A stretch of DNA of 64,000 bases from an uncultured Phycisphaerae bacterium. Its GTDB lineage: Bacteria; Planctomycetota; Phycisphaerae; UBA1845; Fen-1342. The notes under the pieces were generated by a model. That model did not search any database, was not told where the DNA came from, and was given only the letters and a program-made list of their open reading frames with translations. A program made the translations under genes and the position numbers. This document shows positions 3,562 to 54,747 of this stretch, one piece after another. The DNA lies in the NCBI GenBank assembly GCA_937928595.1, contig CALGJV010000003.1, forward strand, positions 62,001 to 126,000, read 5' to 3'. Within the stretch, counting starts at the first letter, position 1. Every line of letters begins with the position of its first letter.

Positions 3562-7383
<3,822 letters not shown>

Positions 7384-48638: not shown

Positions 48639-49424
48639 TTAGCGGCGGGACGAAACCTTGTCGCGGTCCGGTCCGGCGGCGGTTGGCCGGGCGCGGTCGG
48701 CGCTGCGCACGCGGCGGCGGATGGCGAGGAGCCGCGGCAGCGCTTCCAGCAGCAACCGGGCCACGCGGACGCGGCTGTCGGGATCGTTGCGCCACAGCAC
48801 GCCGACTTCGGCGATCCGCAGCCCGCGGCGCTCCGCCCGCGCGAGCAGCTCGCAATCCCACAGCCAGCCGTCCTCCACCACCTCGGCCGCGAGCGGCTGC
48901 GCGAGCGCGGTCGGCAGGAGCTTGAAGCCGCATTGCGTGTCACGAATCGCCGGGACGAGCAGCCGCCGGCGGACGGCGCGGAACCCCCAGGCCAGCACCC
49001 GCCGGGCCCATGGTTGCGGCGGCGCGAGCCGGGCGCCGGGGGCGTCGCGCGAGGCGATCGCGAGGTCTGCGCCCGCGTCGAGCGTCGCTCGGAGTCGCGC
49101 CAGTTCCGTCAGCGGCGTCGAGAGGTCGGCGTCGCACAACAGCACGTACCGGCCGGCGGCCGCGGCGATGCCGCGGCGCAGCGCGTCGCCCTTGCCGCGA
49201 TTCGACGCGCGCCGCAGCACGCGGGCGCCTCCGGACGCGGCGACGTCGGCCGTGTCGTCCGTGCTGCCGTCGTCGACGACGAGCAGTTCGACGGGGCCCG
49301 GATGCCGCGCCGCGAATTCGCGCAGCGCGGCGAGGGTGCGTGGAAGGCGGCGGGCTTCGTTGTAGGCCGGGATCACCACGGAGAGGTCGGGCGGCGGCGC
49401 GGGCGTCGGGGGCGCGGTGGACAT
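48639..49424 (-). CDS. Family 2 glycosyltransferase, dolichyl-phosphate-glucosyltransferase-like
   Basis: The 261-residue protein has the GT2 fold without membrane helices: SVVIPAYNEARRLPRTL, LVVDDGSTDDTADV, NRGKGDALRRGIAAA, VLLCDADLSTPLTEL with the DxD-type Asp, IRDTQCGFKLL and DGWLWDCELL. The CGFK phrase is typical of the ALG5-like branch, which transfers glucose or mannose to a polyprenyl phosphate. Such lipid-linked sugars would suit the GT-C/TMTC-like protein at 23582, though they are not adjacent. It diverges from the Gfo/Idh gene. Confidence 0.9.
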   Translation of the reverse strand: MSTAPPTPAPPPDLSVVIPAYNEARRLPRTLAALREFAARHPGPVELLVVDDGSTDDTADVAASGGARVLRRASNRGKGDALRRGIAAAAGRYVLLCDADLSTPLTELARLRATLDAGADLAIASRDAPGARLAPPQPWARRVLAWGFRAVRRRLLVPAIRDTQCGFKLLPTALAQPLAAEVVEDGWLWDCELLARAERRGLRIAEVGVLWRNDPDSRVRVARLLLEALPRLLAIRRRVRSADRARPTAAGPDRDKVSSRR

Positions 49425-49531: not shown

Positions 49532-50902
49532 ATGAGCGGTACCATGAGTGGTACGGAGCGCAGCGGGGGGCTGACGCGGCGGCAGTTCGTGCAGAGGGCG
49601 GCGGCGACCGGGCTGATGGTGACGCTGCCGGCCTGGGCGCAGGAGACGGCGCCGACGCCGGGGCGGGTCGACGAGCTGGCGGTCGCCGTGATCGGCAGCG
49701 GGGCTTGGTCAAACAGCCAGGGCCTGAACCTCGTGCGGCACTGCCTGAAGATCCCGGGGCTGCGCTTCGTGGCGGTGTGCGACATCTGGCCGTACGCGCG
49801 GCGCTACACGAAGAACATTCTCAAGAAGTACGACCAGAACCCCAACGAGTACGAGGATTACCGCGAGCTGCTGGAGAAGGAGAAGACGCTCGACGCGGTG
49901 ATCATTGCGACGCCCGACTGGGTGCACGCCGAGCAGACGGTCGCGTGCCTCCAGGCCGGCAAGCACGTGTACTGCGAGAAGGAGATGTCCAACACGCTCG
50001 CCGGGGCCCGCGCGATGGTGCAGGCGGCCCGCGCGAGCGGGAAACTGCTCCAGATCGGCCACCAGCGCCGCAGCAACCCGCGCTACTGGCACGCGCTCAA
50101 GCTGATCGAGAAGGACAAGCTCCTCGGTCGCATCACGCACTGCTTCGGCCAGTGGAACCGGCCGCGTCTGCTGGAGATCGGCTGGCCGAGCGGGGAGGAG
50201 CTCGACGCGGCCACGCTCCGCAAGTACGGTTACGACTCGATGGAGTCCTTCCGCAACTGGCGCTGGTACCGGAAGTACTCGGGCGGGCCGATGGCCGACC
50301 TCGGCTCGCACCAGATCGACGTGTTCAACTGGTTCCTGAAGACGCCGCCGAGGACCGTGCAGGCCGCGGGCGGGCTGGACTACTACACGGAGCAGAAGGG
50401 GCGCGACTGGTACGACAACGTGATGGCGATCTACGAGTACCCGACGGCCGCGGGGACGGTGCGGGCGTTCTACCAGGTGCTGAACACGACCAGCCACGGC
50501 GGGTTCTTCGAGACGTTCATGGGCGACGAAGGCTCGCTGGTCATCTCCGAGGACACGCGCAAGGGCCAGATCTTTCGCGAGGAGGCCGCCAAGAAGCGCG
50601 AGTGGGAGAACGAGGCCGACAAGGTCGAGACGATGGGCCGCGAGGCCATCAACCTCAAGATCGGCGAGACGCTCACGTCCACCGGCGAGAAGGACCCCGA
50701 GGGCCAGCGGCTGCTCGAGGAGAGCCGGAAACCGCCGCACCAGCTCCACCTCGAGAACTTCTTCAACGCGATCCGCAACGGCACGCCGCTGAGCTGCCCG
50801 GCCGAGGTCGGCTACGAGGTGTGCGTCGCGGTGCTGCGGGCGAACGAGGCGATCGCGAAGGGCGGCCGCGTCGAGTTCCAGCCGGACGAGTTCAGGGTGT
50901 AG
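49532..50902 (+). CDS. TAT-exported Gfo/Idh/MocA oxidoreductase
   Basis: ATG 49532 gives 456 residues. A twin-arginine signal (LTRRQFVQRAAATGLMVTLP) is at about 14-35. The Rossmann domain has AVIGSGAWS, CDIWPYARR, IATPDWVHAEQT and HVYCEKEMS, in which the EK motif supplies the catalytic Lys. The C-terminal Gfo/Idh domain has GGPMADLGSHQIDVFNWFL. Most such planctomycete proteins act on sugars or polyols in the periplasm; the substrate is unknown. The cytochrome gene begins 3 bp after its stop, so the dehydrogenase and the haem proteins are probably made together. Confidence 0.9.
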   Translation: MSGTMSGTERSGGLTRRQFVQRAAATGLMVTLPAWAQETAPTPGRVDELAVAVIGSGAWSNSQGLNLVRHCLKIPGLRFVAVCDIWPYARRYTKNILKKYDQNPNEYEDYRELLEKEKTLDAVIIATPDWVHAEQTVACLQAGKHVYCEKEMSNTLAGARAMVQAARASGKLLQIGHQRRSNPRYWHALKLIEKDKLLGRITHCFGQWNRPRLLEIGWPSGEELDAATLRKYGYDSMESFRNWRWYRKYSGGPMADLGSHQIDVFNWFLKTPPRTVQAAGGLDYYTEQKGRDWYDNVMAIYEYPTAAGTVRAFYQVLNTTSHGGFFETFMGDEGSLVISEDTRKGQIFREEAAKKREWENEADKVETMGREAINLKIGETLTSTGEKDPEGQRLLEESRKPPHQLHLENFFNAIRNGTPLSCPAEVGYEVCVAVLRANEAIAKGGRVEFQPDEFRV

Positions 50903-50905
50903 GTC

Positions 50906-52771
50906 ATGCGTCGTGGGGTTGCGTCCGTCGTGGTGCTGGGCCTGGCCGCGGCGTGCTGCGCCGCCGATGAGCCGGGCACCGGTCTGCTCCGAACGGACAG
51001 CCTGGCCCCGTACGTCCACCGGCTGACGCTGTACGATCACGACGGCGCGGCCATCGACCCGACGCAGGACGACGCTCCGCCGTATTCGCCCCGCATGACC
51101 TGCGGCAAGTGCCACCCGTACGACCGGATCGCCGGCGGCTGGCACTTCAACGAACCCCGTCCCGACGCGTTCGGGGGGCGGTCCGGCGAGCCGTGGCTAT
51201 TGACCGACCCCGCAACCGGCACGGTCCTGCCGCTGTCGGGCCGCGGGTGGCCGGGGGCGTTCGCGCCGGAGGCGGTGGGGCTGAGCGAGTGGCAGTTCGT
51301 GCTGCGGTTCGGCCGGCACCTGCCGGGAGGCGGGTACGGCGAGCCGGACGGCGAGCGCCGTCGGGCGGCGCCGGAGGCGGCGCGCTGGCGCGTCTCCGGT
51401 GCGCTTGAGATCGATTGTTTGGTGTGCCACGCGGCCGCGATGCACCACGACCCGGCCGAGCGGGCGCGGCAGGTGGAGGCGCAGAACTTCCGCTGGGCGG
51501 CGACCGTGGCGGCGGGACTGGCGGTGGTGCGCGGGGAGGCCCGCAAAGCGCCGGACGACTGGGATCCCGAGGCGCCGCCGGACCTGGACCGTCCGGACCG
51601 GAGCGGGCCACGGCTGGTGTACGATCGCGCGCGGTTCGACCCGGATCAGCGGGTGCTGTTCGATCTGACGCGCCGGCCGCCGGCCGAGCGCTGCTACTTC
51701 TGTCACACGGTGCGCGAGGTCGGCGTCGAAGAAGAGCGTGAGCTGCGGGCGGGACGGGACGTGCATTTGGCCGCGGGCCTGGCGTGCACCGACTGCCACC
51801 GGAACGAACTGGATCACCACATCGTGCGGGGTTACGGGGCCGCGGCCGCGCCGGAAAGGGAGCTATTGGGGGGCAACGCGGCGCTGTCGTGCGAGGGGTG
51901 CCACCTGGGTACGTCGGGCGGCGCGGCGCTGGGGCCGGATGTGGCCGGGATGCACGGGGCGCCGTATCCGCAGCACCGCGGTCTGCCGCCGCTGCACTTT
52001 GAGAAGATGACCTGCACCGCCTGCCACAGCGGCCCGTGGCCCGACATGACGGCCCGCCGGTTTCAGACGGCGCTCGCGCACGGGCTGGGGTTGGCGTCAC
52101 GCGAGCGGCGTGACACCGACCCGCCGCTGATCCTTGCGCCGATCTTCGGACGCGGCGCGGACGGCCGCATCGAGGCGCAACGCATGGTCTGGCCCGCGTA
52201 CTGGGGCCGGCTCGAGGGCGAGCGCATCACGCCGCTGCTGCCCGAGACCGTGCGGAAGCTGGCCGGGGCGGCGCTGCCCCGGGTCGCGAAAGACCCGCCG
52301 CCGCCCCCGACCGACGAGCAGATTGCCGCCGTGCTCGCGGCGCTCGGTCGGGCGGAGGGGGCGGCGGGCGAAGCTGTCTACATCCGCGACGGCCGGCTTT
52401 ACCGGCTGGGCGCGGACGGAGGGCTGGTGGTCACGCACGGTCATCCGGGCGCGGCGGCGTATCGGTGGGCGGTAGGGCACGACGTGCGGCCGGCGTCGCA
52501 GTCGCTCGGAATCGGCGGCTGCACGGACTGCCACGTGGACGGGGCGCCGATCGTGTTCGGTTACGCGGCGACGCAGCCGGCCGGGCCGGGCGCGTTGCGT
52601 ATGTTCGAGCTGCGCGGGGAGGATCCGCGGCTCGTGGAGGCGTGGGCGGCGGGTTTCGCCTGGCGGCCGGTGTTCAAAGTTTTCGCGTTCGCGTGCGTCG
52701 GAGTTATGACGCTGGTGCTGCTGCATGGCGGTCTCGACGGGCTCCTGGCGTTGCTGGGGAGGAGGCCGTGA
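50906..52771 (+). CDS. Seven-haem cytochrome c with C-terminal membrane anchor
   Basis: The 621-residue protein has a signal peptide (cleavage near residue 20; Cys17-18 may form a lipobox instead) and seven CxxCH motifs at about 66, 171, 263, 294, 329, 370 and 539. Additional His residues between them could be distal ligands. A membrane helix lies at about 595-616, leaving the haems outside. The first six haems form an N-terminal group; the seventh follows a spacer of about 165 residues. I do not recognise a named family. The next gene, for a cytochrome-b-like protein, begins 1 bp after the stop. A quinol- or dehydrogenase-linked electron carrier is the likely role. Confidence 0.88.
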   Translation: MRRGVASVVVLGLAAACCAADEPGTGLLRTDSLAPYVHRLTLYDHDGAAIDPTQDDAPPYSPRMTCGKCHPYDRIAGGWHFNEPRPDAFGGRSGEPWLLTDPATGTVLPLSGRGWPGAFAPEAVGLSEWQFVLRFGRHLPGGGYGEPDGERRRAAPEAARWRVSGALEIDCLVCHAAAMHHDPAERARQVEAQNFRWAATVAAGLAVVRGEARKAPDDWDPEAPPDLDRPDRSGPRLVYDRARFDPDQRVLFDLTRRPPAERCYFCHTVREVGVEEERELRAGRDVHLAAGLACTDCHRNELDHHIVRGYGAAAAPERELLGGNAALSCEGCHLGTSGGAALGPDVAGMHGAPYPQHRGLPPLHFEKMTCTACHSGPWPDMTARRFQTALAHGLGLASRERRDTDPPLILAPIFGRGADGRIEAQRMVWPAYWGRLEGERITPLLPETVRKLAGAALPRVAKDPPPPPTDEQIAAVLAALGRAEGAAGEAVYIRDGRLYRLGADGGLVVTHGHPGAAAYRWAVGHDVRPASQSLGIGGCTDCHVDGAPIVFGYAATQPAGPGALRMFELRGEDPRLVEAWAAGFAWRPVFKVFAFACVGVMTLVLLHGGLDGLLALLGRRP

Positions 52772-52772
52772 G

Positions 52773-53276
52773 ATGAGCAGCGTGCCGCAGCCGGCGTCGA
52801 GCCCGATTCCGGCGACCGCCGCGCCTGCGGCGGTGGGCGGAGCGGCGAGGGAGCGTCGGAGCCTGTCGGCGTGGGAGCACGTGGCGCACACGGTAGCGCT
52901 GGTGGGCGTCGGGGTACAGGCTGTCACGGGGTTCGGCGAGGGGCTGGGCCTGGGTGAGCTGGAGGGGTGGCGGTTGCTAGCGCACCTGTGCGGGGCGGGC
53001 CTGTTCGCGGCGGGGTTCACGGCCACGATGCTGCTGTGGCTGCCGCGGGCGCGCAGGGCGGTGCCCGGGATGGGGTGGGTGCGTCGCACACTGTACTGGC
53101 TGGTTCTGGCGGCGGGGGTGGCGGTGATGTGGCCGATGCTGCTGGCGATGCTGCCGCTGGCCGGCACGGCCGCGCAGGAAGAGCTGGTCGAGTGGCACGA
53201 GGCCGCCGCGCTGACGCTGGTGGTGCTCATGGTGCCGCACACGGTGGCGTCGCTGGTTGCGCGGTTGCGGTGCTGA
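52773..53276 (+). CDS. Four-helix cytochrome-b-like membrane subunit
   Basis: ATG 52773 follows GGAGGAGGCC, giving 167 residues. After a Pro/Ala-rich start come four membrane helices. His residues occur in each (WEHVAHT, LLAHLCG, VEWHEAAA, MVPHTVA), with spacing that could ligate one or two b haems as in cytochrome b561 / FdnI-type subunits. No cytochrome b family motif is complete. It directly follows the seven-haem cytochrome gene and could pass electrons between quinone and the c-type haems. Confidence 0.72.
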   Translation: MSSVPQPASSPIPATAAPAAVGGAARERRSLSAWEHVAHTVALVGVGVQAVTGFGEGLGLGELEGWRLLAHLCGAGLFAAGFTATMLLWLPRARRAVPGMGWVRRTLYWLVLAAGVAVMWPMLLAMLPLAGTAAQEELVEWHEAAALTLVVLMVPHTVASLVARLRC

Positions 53277-53346
53277 GCCGGCGCGCTTGGGGGACTCGCA
53301 CGTTCCACGCGAGGCAGACCGCGGGTCCTGTGGGATGCGCGCCGCC

Positions 53347-53808
53347 TCAGTCGTAGAACGTCGGCAGGTAGCGCAGCGTTGCGCTCAGCACGACAATCAG
53401 CGCGAGCAGGCCGAGGGCCCAGTTGAGCCAGCCCGCGGCGCGGGCACGGACCGCGTCGAAACGCGGGCCCGGCAGGCTGAGCAGCAGGCCGACGTGGAAC
53501 AGCCCGAGTCCGACCAGGAACTTCACGCCGAAGAGCCCGTGGTACAGGCCGGTGTACGGCTGTCCGCGGACCGCGGGCACCTTGAAAAGGACGAAGTTGA
53601 CGAGCCCTGTCACCAGCAGCAGGGCGATGCCCGCCGCCGCGACGCCGACCCAGCGGCGCGCGAGCCGCTGCTGGAGCGCGGTCCGGGTGCCGTCCTCCAG
53701 TCCGGCCAGCGCCGGCCCCAGCGCGAGGCGCTGGTAGACCAGGGCGCCGCCCAGCGCCAACGCCGCGCCGATGTGAAACACGCGAAGTACGATCTGCAAC
53801 GCATCCAT
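53347..53808 (-). CDS. Four-helix integral membrane protein (CopD/DUF2269-like)
   Basis: The 153-residue protein has four membrane helices (about 5-25, 50-73, 85-107, 125-146). The first contains RVFHIGAALALGGAL and the third LGLFHVGLLL, with His residues on helical faces, reminiscent of CopD- or DUF2269-type haem or copper membrane proteins. It converges on the cytochrome operon with a 70-bp gap. Participation in the same redox module is possible but unproven. Confidence 0.68.
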   Translation of the reverse strand: MDALQIVLRVFHIGAALALGGALVYQRLALGPALAGLEDGTRTALQQRLARRWVGVAAAGIALLLVTGLVNFVLFKVPAVRGQPYTGLYHGLFGVKFLVGLGLFHVGLLLSLPGPRFDAVRARAAGWLNWALGLLALIVVLSATLRYLPTFYD

Positions 53809-53900: not shown

Positions 53901-54617
53901 CTACGCCGGCACGGCGGTCGTCTTGCGGCGACGGCGGCGCTTCTTGACCACGCCGAGCCGCGGCGCGTTCGCGACCCGCGGCGGCAGGTTGCGGGCCGTC
54001 GCGATCACGTCGCGCGGCGTCTCGCAGTGTGCGTCGGCTCCCACCTCGCGCCAGAGCCCGTCCGCGCGGCCGAAGATGCCGCCGGTGACGATGATGTTCA
54101 TTTCGCTGCAGACGCCGATTTCGCGGATGCGCTCGATGACGGCCCGCGTGGCGGGCACGGTCTCGGGCACCGCGCCGTAGATCAGCATCAGGTGCGGTCG
54201 CAGCTTGCCGACGAGCTGGAGCACCTCGTCATCCGGCACGCCGCCGCCGATGAAGTACACCTCCCACCCGTCCGCCTGCAACAGGTCGGCCATGAGCTGC
54301 CCGCCGAGCTCCTCGCTCTCCGTCGGCGCGCAGGCGACCAGCACCCGCCGGCCGGTGGCCGGGCGGCGCGGCAGGTGGGGCTGCACCTGGTCGGCGGCGG
54401 TGCGGTTGATGCGGCAGGCGAGGTGCTCGGTGGCCGTGTCGATGCGGTCGTCGCGGTAGAGGCGCTCCACCTGCGACATCGCGGGCCAGATGACATCACA
54501 GACGAGCTCTTCGGCGGACTGCCCGTGGCGCAGGGCTTCGTTGACGAGGTCGAAGCATTCCCATCGGCGGCCGGCCAGCAGCGGTTGCAGGTAACGGAGG
54601 AGAAACGGTTCGGGCAT
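53901..54617 (-). CDS. B12-binding-fold protein lacking the axial His
   Basis: ATG 54617 follows ACGGAGCAGC, giving 238 residues. The N-terminal helical B12-binding-2 cap (LYRDDRIDTATEHLACRINRTAAD) and the Rossmann-like B12 domain (RRVLVACAP, MADLLQADGWEVYFIGGGVP, LIYGAVPETV, NIIVTGGIFG) are clear. The loop that normally reads E/D-x-H-x-x-G is TESEELGG, with Glu instead of the cobalt-ligating His. A Lys/Arg-rich tail closes the protein. It resembles sensor partners of MerR/CarH- or corrinoid-type proteins but may bind base-on cobalamin, another ligand, or none. Confidence 0.83.
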   Translation of the reverse strand: MPEPFLLRYLQPLLAGRRWECFDLVNEALRHGQSAEELVCDVIWPAMSQVERLYRDDRIDTATEHLACRINRTAADQVQPHLPRRPATGRRVLVACAPTESEELGGQLMADLLQADGWEVYFIGGGVPDDEVLQLVGKLRPHLMLIYGAVPETVPATRAVIERIREIGVCSEMNIIVTGGIFGRADGLWREVGADAHCETPRDVIATARNLPPRVANAPRLGVVKKRRRRRKTTAVPA

Positions 54618-54747
54618 GGAAGCTGCTCCGTGTTGCGCCCGTCGCATGCGACCGTCCACGCGCAGTCACCCAGCGGGACCGCAACGGGCCGACTGACGAA
54701 ACCCCAGCATCCATGCCGGTGGGATACGCTGTGCGGGCGAGGCACAC

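Follow-up and report, generated by a model that had tools for sequence, protein, structure and literature searches.

A recurrent gene module combining an exported Gfo/Idh/MocA oxidoreductase, a seven-haem cytochrome c and a predicted b-type cytochrome subunit in an uncultured Phycisphaerae bacterium

The stretch described here, called the window, comprises 64,000 nucleotides of an uncultured Phycisphaerae bacterium (GenBank assembly GCA_937928595.1, contig CALGJV010000003.1, positions 62,001 to 126,000) and lies on contig C3 of a genome of 3.69 Mb in 46 contigs. Three consecutive plus-strand genes, GFO, CYTC and CYTB, occupy positions 49532-53276 and encode an exported oxidoreductase of the Gfo/Idh/MocA family, a multihaem cytochrome c and a predicted b-type cytochrome subunit. 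The coordinates bear out the close spacing noted in a first reading of the sequence (the original prediction), with gaps of 3 bp and then 1 bp. Other loci, genomes and contigs are cited by their L, G and C numbers.

49532..50902, plus strand: GFO, Gfo/Idh/MocA oxidoreductase exported by twin-arginine translocation (TAT), 456 aa (PF01408, PF02894, TIGR01409)
50906..52771, plus strand: CYTC, seven-haem c-type cytochrome with a signal peptide and a C-terminal membrane helix, 621 aa (PF14522, 7 CxxCH)
52773..53276, plus strand: CYTB, predicted diverged cytochrome b561/FdnI-type b subunit with four helices, 167 aa (invariant H71/H142, FdnI match)

CYTC has relatives in 21 of the 27 genomes of the window's family, in 35 of 392 genomes of the phylum (E ≤ 1e-20) and on 23 contigs of a named collection, whose carriers include Phycisphaerae, other Planctomycetota, Kiritimatiellales (with the cultured Pontiella sulfatireligans, L051), Verrucomicrobia, Omnitrophota and KSB1. 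Two archaeal contigs with a short match only (L057, L058) were excluded from the counts. They are likewise outside the 54 main-type loci, as are six duplicate contigs and the paralog loci L074 and L075; the contig-spanning gene of G006 was counted as two separate halves (L076, L077). The fractions below refer to main-type loci with enough flank, the window being scored as a miss for ApbE, DISC and PMT. The usual gene order is GFO-CYTC-CYTB-DISC-PMT-ApbE, often followed by a second Gfo/Idh gene (GFO2). At L041, DISC is discoidin-like (PF22633, 34.8 bits, cut-off 27.8), PMT, a glycosyltransferase, scores 190.5 bits with TIGR03663 (cut-off 126.25) and also matches PMT_2, and ApbE, a flavin mononucleotide transferase, scores 141.6 bits with PF02424 (cut-off 25.6).

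CYTB lies within 500 bp downstream of CYTC, or is fused to it, in 43/48 loci, and a GFO ortholog stands on the same strand at most 1.3 kb upstream of CYTC in 32/46. ApbE is present at 25/34 loci, DISC at 28/36 and PMT at 22/34, and all six genes occur together at 18/29. CYTC and CYTB share a single reading frame at 15 loci; at L150 and L155 ApbE is placed between GFO and CYTC. The original prediction had made its proposal depend on conservation of the trio in relatives, and relatives do conserve it. The module is also larger than the trio, as DISC, PMT and ApbE belong to it too. Fusions of PMT with ApbE in a single reading frame were observed at L046 (9751-12276) and L153 (1035-3572).

Permease-like open reading frames (ORFs) account for all the ORFs scanned between CYTB and DISC at L046, L148, L153, L154, L156, L157 and L158; five of the seven are above the Pfam cut-off, that of L156 is slightly below it, and that of L153 has an NCBIfam match only. 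The same gap holds a different ORF in L063 and an aldolase-like ORF (label assigned by eye) in L043. Permeases inside the module suggest import of a product or substrate. A xylose-isomerase-like barrel fused to a 3-keto-disaccharide hydrolase domain is encoded directly upstream of the module in L046 (2426-3826).

In a distant family, f23, each of the 12 loci has CYTC at most 1.7 kb from a divergent ApbE, with a Gfo/Idh gene beside CYTC (Pfam-confirmed in one, L169); no CYTB, DISC or PMT was detected at these 12 loci. The loci L166-L174 and L176-L178, from one distant planctomycete family, show the CYTC homolog adjoining ApbE and a Gfo/Idh gene, and L169 has a formylglycine-generating-enzyme-like gene directly 5' of CYTC.

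Across the 27 family genomes, a GFO ortholog (E ≤ 1e-90, one copy each) occurs in precisely the 21 that carry CYTC, and the remaining six lack it (Fisher 3.4e-6, a p-value that overstates independence, the genomes being related); some matches to CYTC and GFO are only partial, lying at contig ends. DISC was found in 18/21 CYTC genomes and 0/6 others, the three carriers without it (G008, G009, G020) being 82-88% complete, and the module-type ApbE in 20/21 and 0/6. In the window genome DISC, PMT and ApbE are encoded on contig C11, with PMT in the middle. In G006, a single contig, GFO, CYTC and DISC/ApbE are located at three distant places and are all kept. Functional linkage of GFO, CYTC and CYTB is well supported because of the conserved order, the c-b fusions and the identical presence in 21/27 genomes, unlinked cases included. 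Gfo/Idh genes are common in the phylum, and the trio could on that ground be taken for chance neighbours drawn from an abundant family; GFO orthologs whose best identity to a module GFO is 45-76% are however found upstream of CYTC in several phyla, and the locus tallies together with the genome co-occurrence refute that explanation, which retains next to no probability. The arrangement is beyond chance.

The GFO protein has both domains of the Gfo/Idh/MocA family (PF01408, 64.9 bits, cut-off 24; PF02894, 53.4 bits, cut-off 22.9) and a TAT signal (TIGR01409, 18.1 bits, cut-off 16.7), which confirms the TAT-exported oxidoreductase originally proposed. Residues K150, D256 and H260, the catalytic Lys and Asp/His by analogy with inositol dehydrogenase, are invariant in 14/14 sequences. 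The motif EKE is present in 32/32 module GFOs and DLGSHQxD in 30/32. In the glycine-rich loop binding nicotinamide adenine dinucleotide (phosphate), NAD(P), the window GFO has a four-residue insertion (window 49694-49723, residues 55-64); 31/32 module GFOs have a short loop, and the insertion, seen in the window GFO only, is either a real change or an assembly error. No curated NCBIfam equivalog matched GFO above its cut-off. The glycoside 3-dehydrogenase BT_2158 family (NF058561), a Bacteroides-type family which by its NCBIfam label also belongs to Gfo/Idh and oxidises sugars, was rejected at 82.5 bits against a cut-off of 750.

The predicted model of GFO (mean predicted local distance difference test, pLDDT, 82.4) is closest in fold to Zymomonas glucose-fructose oxidoreductase (1h6d, 1rye), then to scyllo-inositol and levoglucosan dehydrogenases; sequence identity is about 20%. 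The Zymomonas enzyme is an exported Gfo/Idh protein with tightly bound NADP that needs no electron carrier. GFO resembles it in family, export signal and closest PDB fold, and differs in its association with haems c and b and with ApbE, and in the low identity. Both glucose-fructose oxidoreductase and GH109 enzymes are redox-neutral with a tightly bound cofactor. GFO could likewise act on a glycan with bound NAD in a redox-neutral way, exchanging no electrons with the haems, while CYTC-CYTB passes electrons to or from another partner and what the genes have in common is their regulation or an envelope structure. The nearest folds, one of them that of an enzyme with internal cofactor recycling, the GFO2 gene of several modules, the rarity of flavin-free transfer from NAD(P)H to haem, and CYTC-CYTB pairs with no GFO nearby at L044, L048 and L049 are in line with such a role. 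It is rather unlikely all the same, since the presence and absence of GFO and CYTC coincide in all 27 genomes, also where they are unlinked, and the genes are spaced by 3 bp and 1 bp.

The CYTC protein of the window contains exactly seven CxxCH motifs, at residues 66, 171, 263, 294, 329, 370 and 539, and a hydrophobic C-terminal helix at residues 587-611, so that the membrane-anchored seven-haem protein of the original prediction stands. It belongs to Cytochrome_C7 (PF14522, 31.8 bits, cut-off 24.8), a family matched at E ≤ 0.001 by 19/19 relatives. All seven CxxCH motifs are kept, together with exactly seven further invariant His (38, 80, 287, 304, 357, 364, 525), in 59/59 CYTC sequences, a set that includes the window's protein and 12 from a distant clade. 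Because seven haems are accompanied by seven spare invariant His, CYTC is likely to be an all-bis-His electron-transfer protein, without an open catalytic haem. No curated family covers CYTC or its relatives over the whole length; over short stretches CYTC resembles nitrite reductases of the PDB (best E 1.1e-7, about 56 positions). Octaheme tetrathionate reductase (TIGR04315) was rejected at 23.8 bits against a cut-off of 375, and scores for the methanogen seven-haem and HmcA families were below the NCBIfam cut-offs.

Relatives of CYTC have weak similarity to MtrC/MtrF, DmsE and NrfB-type cytochrome models. This would be in line with the module being a multihaem terminal reductase or a branch of extracellular electron transfer, with GFO, DISC, PMT and ApbE as accessories of maturation or of the cell surface. 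Such a function is improbable: with as many invariant extra His as haems, seven of each, no haem is obviously left open for catalysis, the protein carries a membrane helix, and no porin is among the gene families that recur around CYTC. A distant CYTC relative of 1032 aa at L034 (G000:C25, 3756-11943) has as neighbours a phosphate-porin-like protein and a gene labelled arsenite-methyltransferase-like by eye (methyltransferase in Pfam); the neighbours at L074 and L075 are similar, and this type of locus looks like a separate porin-cytochrome system. L035 encodes on the minus strand (5199-6593) an exported lipoprotein-like protein with about eight CxxCH motifs, counted by eye.

CYTB has His at residues 36, 39, 71, 142 and 156. 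The original prediction placed His in every one of its four helices; they are found on helices 1, 2 and 4, with two in helix 4, and helix 3 (about residues 106-134) is without His. Placement of the His on the helices had also been put forward as a check, and the helices expected of an FdnI-like fold do carry them. The window protein is below the gathering score of the prokaryotic cytochrome b561 family (PF01292, 11.1 bits, cut-off 30.1, E 0.34), while the relatives at L038 and L043 score 57.5 and 50.4 bits, and PF01292 is hit at E ≤ 0.01 by 8 of the 18 relatives aligned (best E 2e-15). A profile built from the 18 relatives finds FdnI of formate dehydrogenase N (1kqf_C) at E 5.6e-4. Assignment of the relatives to formate dehydrogenase gamma (TIGR01583) was rejected, the best scanned reaching 75.4 bits against a cut-off of 115.85.

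The natural CYTC-CYTB fusion of L039 (760 aa) was modelled with AlphaFold (mean pLDDT 75.3, predicted template modelling score 0.73, 32 rows) and shows one plus four long helices. Residues 610-760 of the model superpose on 1kqf_C with Z 10.8 and a root-mean-square deviation of 3.8 over 149 residues; the next match is E. coli superoxide oxidase (Z 10.1), and unrelated helical bundles reach Z 9.0. The fold match to FdnI is weak when taken alone; sequence and fold agree. For the multihaem part of model m026da78dd872 no Foldseek match was obtained at E ≤ 0.001, the VIA rows falling mainly in residues 563-760, and novelty of the fold is not implied.

H71 and H142 are conserved in 18/18 relatives, H39 in 4 and H156 in 10, and the full pair H39/H156 is absent from 14/18. 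By position, H71/H142 would hold an outer-side haem b, and H39/H156 a second, inner-side haem that most relatives would lack. The ligand roles and the helix pattern 1, 2, 4, 4 are those of FdnI, applied here by analogy to the His of CYTB. With its four helices and His on helices 1, 2 and 4, CYTB is best described as a predicted diverged FdnI/b561-type cytochrome b. It shares four helices and the His pattern with FdnI and cytochrome b561; it differs in its score below the Pfam cut-off, in the incomplete second pair of most relatives, and in having as partners a multihaem c and a Gfo/Idh protein instead of a molybdenum/iron-sulphur enzyme. Gene linkage, conservation of haems and ligands, and family assignments are demonstrated for the module.

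The window genome has one ApbE only (PF02424, 151.8 bits, cut-off 25.6). FMN_bind (FMN, flavin mononucleotide) and NqrB/RnfD domains were both searched for and not found in it; in all, FMN_bind is absent from 22/27 family genomes and NqrB/RnfD from 21/27. The module-type ApbE is the only ApbE, with neither FMN_bind nor NqrB/RnfD, in 13/27 family genomes (the ApbE of G015 being a fragment only). According to passages of PMC12052999 the flavin-attachment motif is D-x-x-[S/T]-G-A-[S/T], and according to passages of PMC11334425 about half of the genomes with ApbE are without a characterised flavinylation system. The module resembles ApbE flavinylation systems (Nqr, Rnf, FMN_bind), as presented in parts of PMC8238504, PMC11334425 and PMC12052999, in that a PF02424 ApbE adjoins envelope redox proteins, and differs in the missing FMN_bind and NqrB/RnfD of the window genome and in the missing conserved motif. 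A motif search over the module proteins gave isolated matches only (L056, L073, L061, L064, L068, L176). The corresponding DNA pattern matched the window genome 64 times against 47 in a reversed control, little above chance; matches were inspected at 47 loci, and the ApbE substrate may be encoded elsewhere in this genome. The one candidate that looked exported, a lipoprotein labelled SOUL-like by eye (L196 1399-2109; G000:C11:93422-94132) with the linker DSASGAT, was rejected, with homologs in only 4/27 genomes and a motif region that does not align. The module ApbE would thus either use another attachment site, or have its substrate elsewhere, or supply free FMN.

Two further genes adjoin the trio in the window.

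48639..49424, minus strand: GT2, divergent family-2 glycosyltransferase adjoining GFO (PF00535, 97.7 bits)
53347-53808, minus strand: facing gene, with helices and three His, no Pfam family

A GT2 homolog is divergent on the GFO side in 6/54 main-type loci (window included) and downstream in three more; it is possibly associated with the module and was left out of the core. The facing gene had been called CopD/DUF2269-like in the original prediction. A Pfam scan at E ≤ 1 gave no family for it and no support for CopD/DUF2269, and tblastn at E ≤ 1e-3 found no copy at 45 loci (L034-L078, six of them duplicate contigs); it was rejected as a module subunit. Positions 53901-54659 (minus strand) encode a stand-alone B12-binding protein, like corrinoid proteins or CarH-type sensors.

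The original prediction united a Gfo/Idh enzyme, a multihaem c and a b-type subunit; their functional linkage is upheld by order, fusions and co-occurrence, and from here on we infer the electron flow and its direction, the bound cofactor, the flavin step and the glycosylation. Our tentatively preferred account, held at a little less than even confidence, is that GFO keeps NAD(P) tightly bound and uses it to oxidise a sugar-like compound outside the cytoplasm, electrons then passing through CYTC and haem b to quinone, with ApbE perhaps supplying a covalent flavin. GFO would be exported folded, with NAD(P) already bound, and would oxidise, at the outer face of the membrane, a compound resembling a sugar or a cyclitol. 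The bound NAD(P)H would be re-oxidised in place, because exported GFO cannot exchange its cofactor with the cytoplasm. The genes around it would provide for this with an enzyme that handles flavin, seven haem steps, haem b and a membrane subunit facing quinone. Electrons would travel from GFO through the seven bis-His haems of CYTC to the putative outer-side haem b of CYTB (H71/H142) and on to quinone, a flavin attached or supplied by ApbE providing the two-to-one-electron step. The product would be imported, in some lineages via the permease encoded within the module, and an exported subunit would be the target of glycosylation by PMT and GT2.

Several observations weigh against this account. 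GFO is not upstream of CYTC in 14/46 main-type loci, five of which are from family genomes with GFO elsewhere, and L044, L048 and L049 have no GFO in about 6 kb upstream of CYTC-CYTB. No conserved D-x-x-[ST]-G-A-[ST] motif was found in the module proteins, which leaves the flavin step without a site. Pontiella sulfatireligans (L051) carries the module although it ferments, and a respiratory sink is not evident; the passages of PMC6388578 on its strain F21 list products of fermentation and name no electron acceptor.

The fermenting carrier would be easier to understand if the same complex ran in reverse, from quinol through CYTB and CYTC to GFO, which would then dispose of the electrons by reducing a keto-sugar or a compound like it. 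Modules of haem b and multihaem c often serve reductases, and Gfo/Idh enzymes are reversible. This direction is nonetheless quite unlikely, as the permeases within the module and the 3-keto-disaccharide hydrolase/isomerase fusion of L046 point to uptake and breakdown, and formation of NAD(P)H from menaquinol is uphill.

Oxidation by GFO with transfer to quinone, the account preferred here, would resemble in role the periplasmic sugar and alcohol dehydrogenases in which an exported dehydrogenase is joined through a cytochrome to quinone or an oxidase. The dehydrogenases coupled in this way to cytochrome c are flavin adenine dinucleotide/glucose-methanol-choline (FAD/GMC) or pyrroloquinoline quinone (PQQ) enzymes; GFO, in contrast, is a Rossmann NAD(P) enzyme and not a flavo- or quinoprotein. 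A bolder form, in which a Rossmann NAD(P) enzyme has become the catalytic subunit of a respiratory complex in the membrane, with NAD(P) as fixed prosthetic group and electrons leaving by a covalent flavin (attached by a dedicated ApbE at a new target site), seven bis-His haems, haem b and quinone, is doubtful at present. No description of the GFO-CYTC-CYTB-DISC-PMT-ApbE module was found in the open-licence PMC literature, and the data suggest an undescribed route by which electrons from a sugar-like compound reach the membrane.

An ApbE class that travels with a redox module and has no known substrate is of interest in itself, and its target would add a new class of flavinylated proteins. With c-b fusions occurring in nature and one carrier in culture, the haem-wiring and the ApbE-target questions are both workable. 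Exported Gfo/Idh enzymes are abundant in bacteria of the Planctomycetes-Verrucomicrobia-Chlamydiae (PVC) group, and haem wiring of the kind proposed would be a concrete, testable answer to how they regenerate their cofactor.

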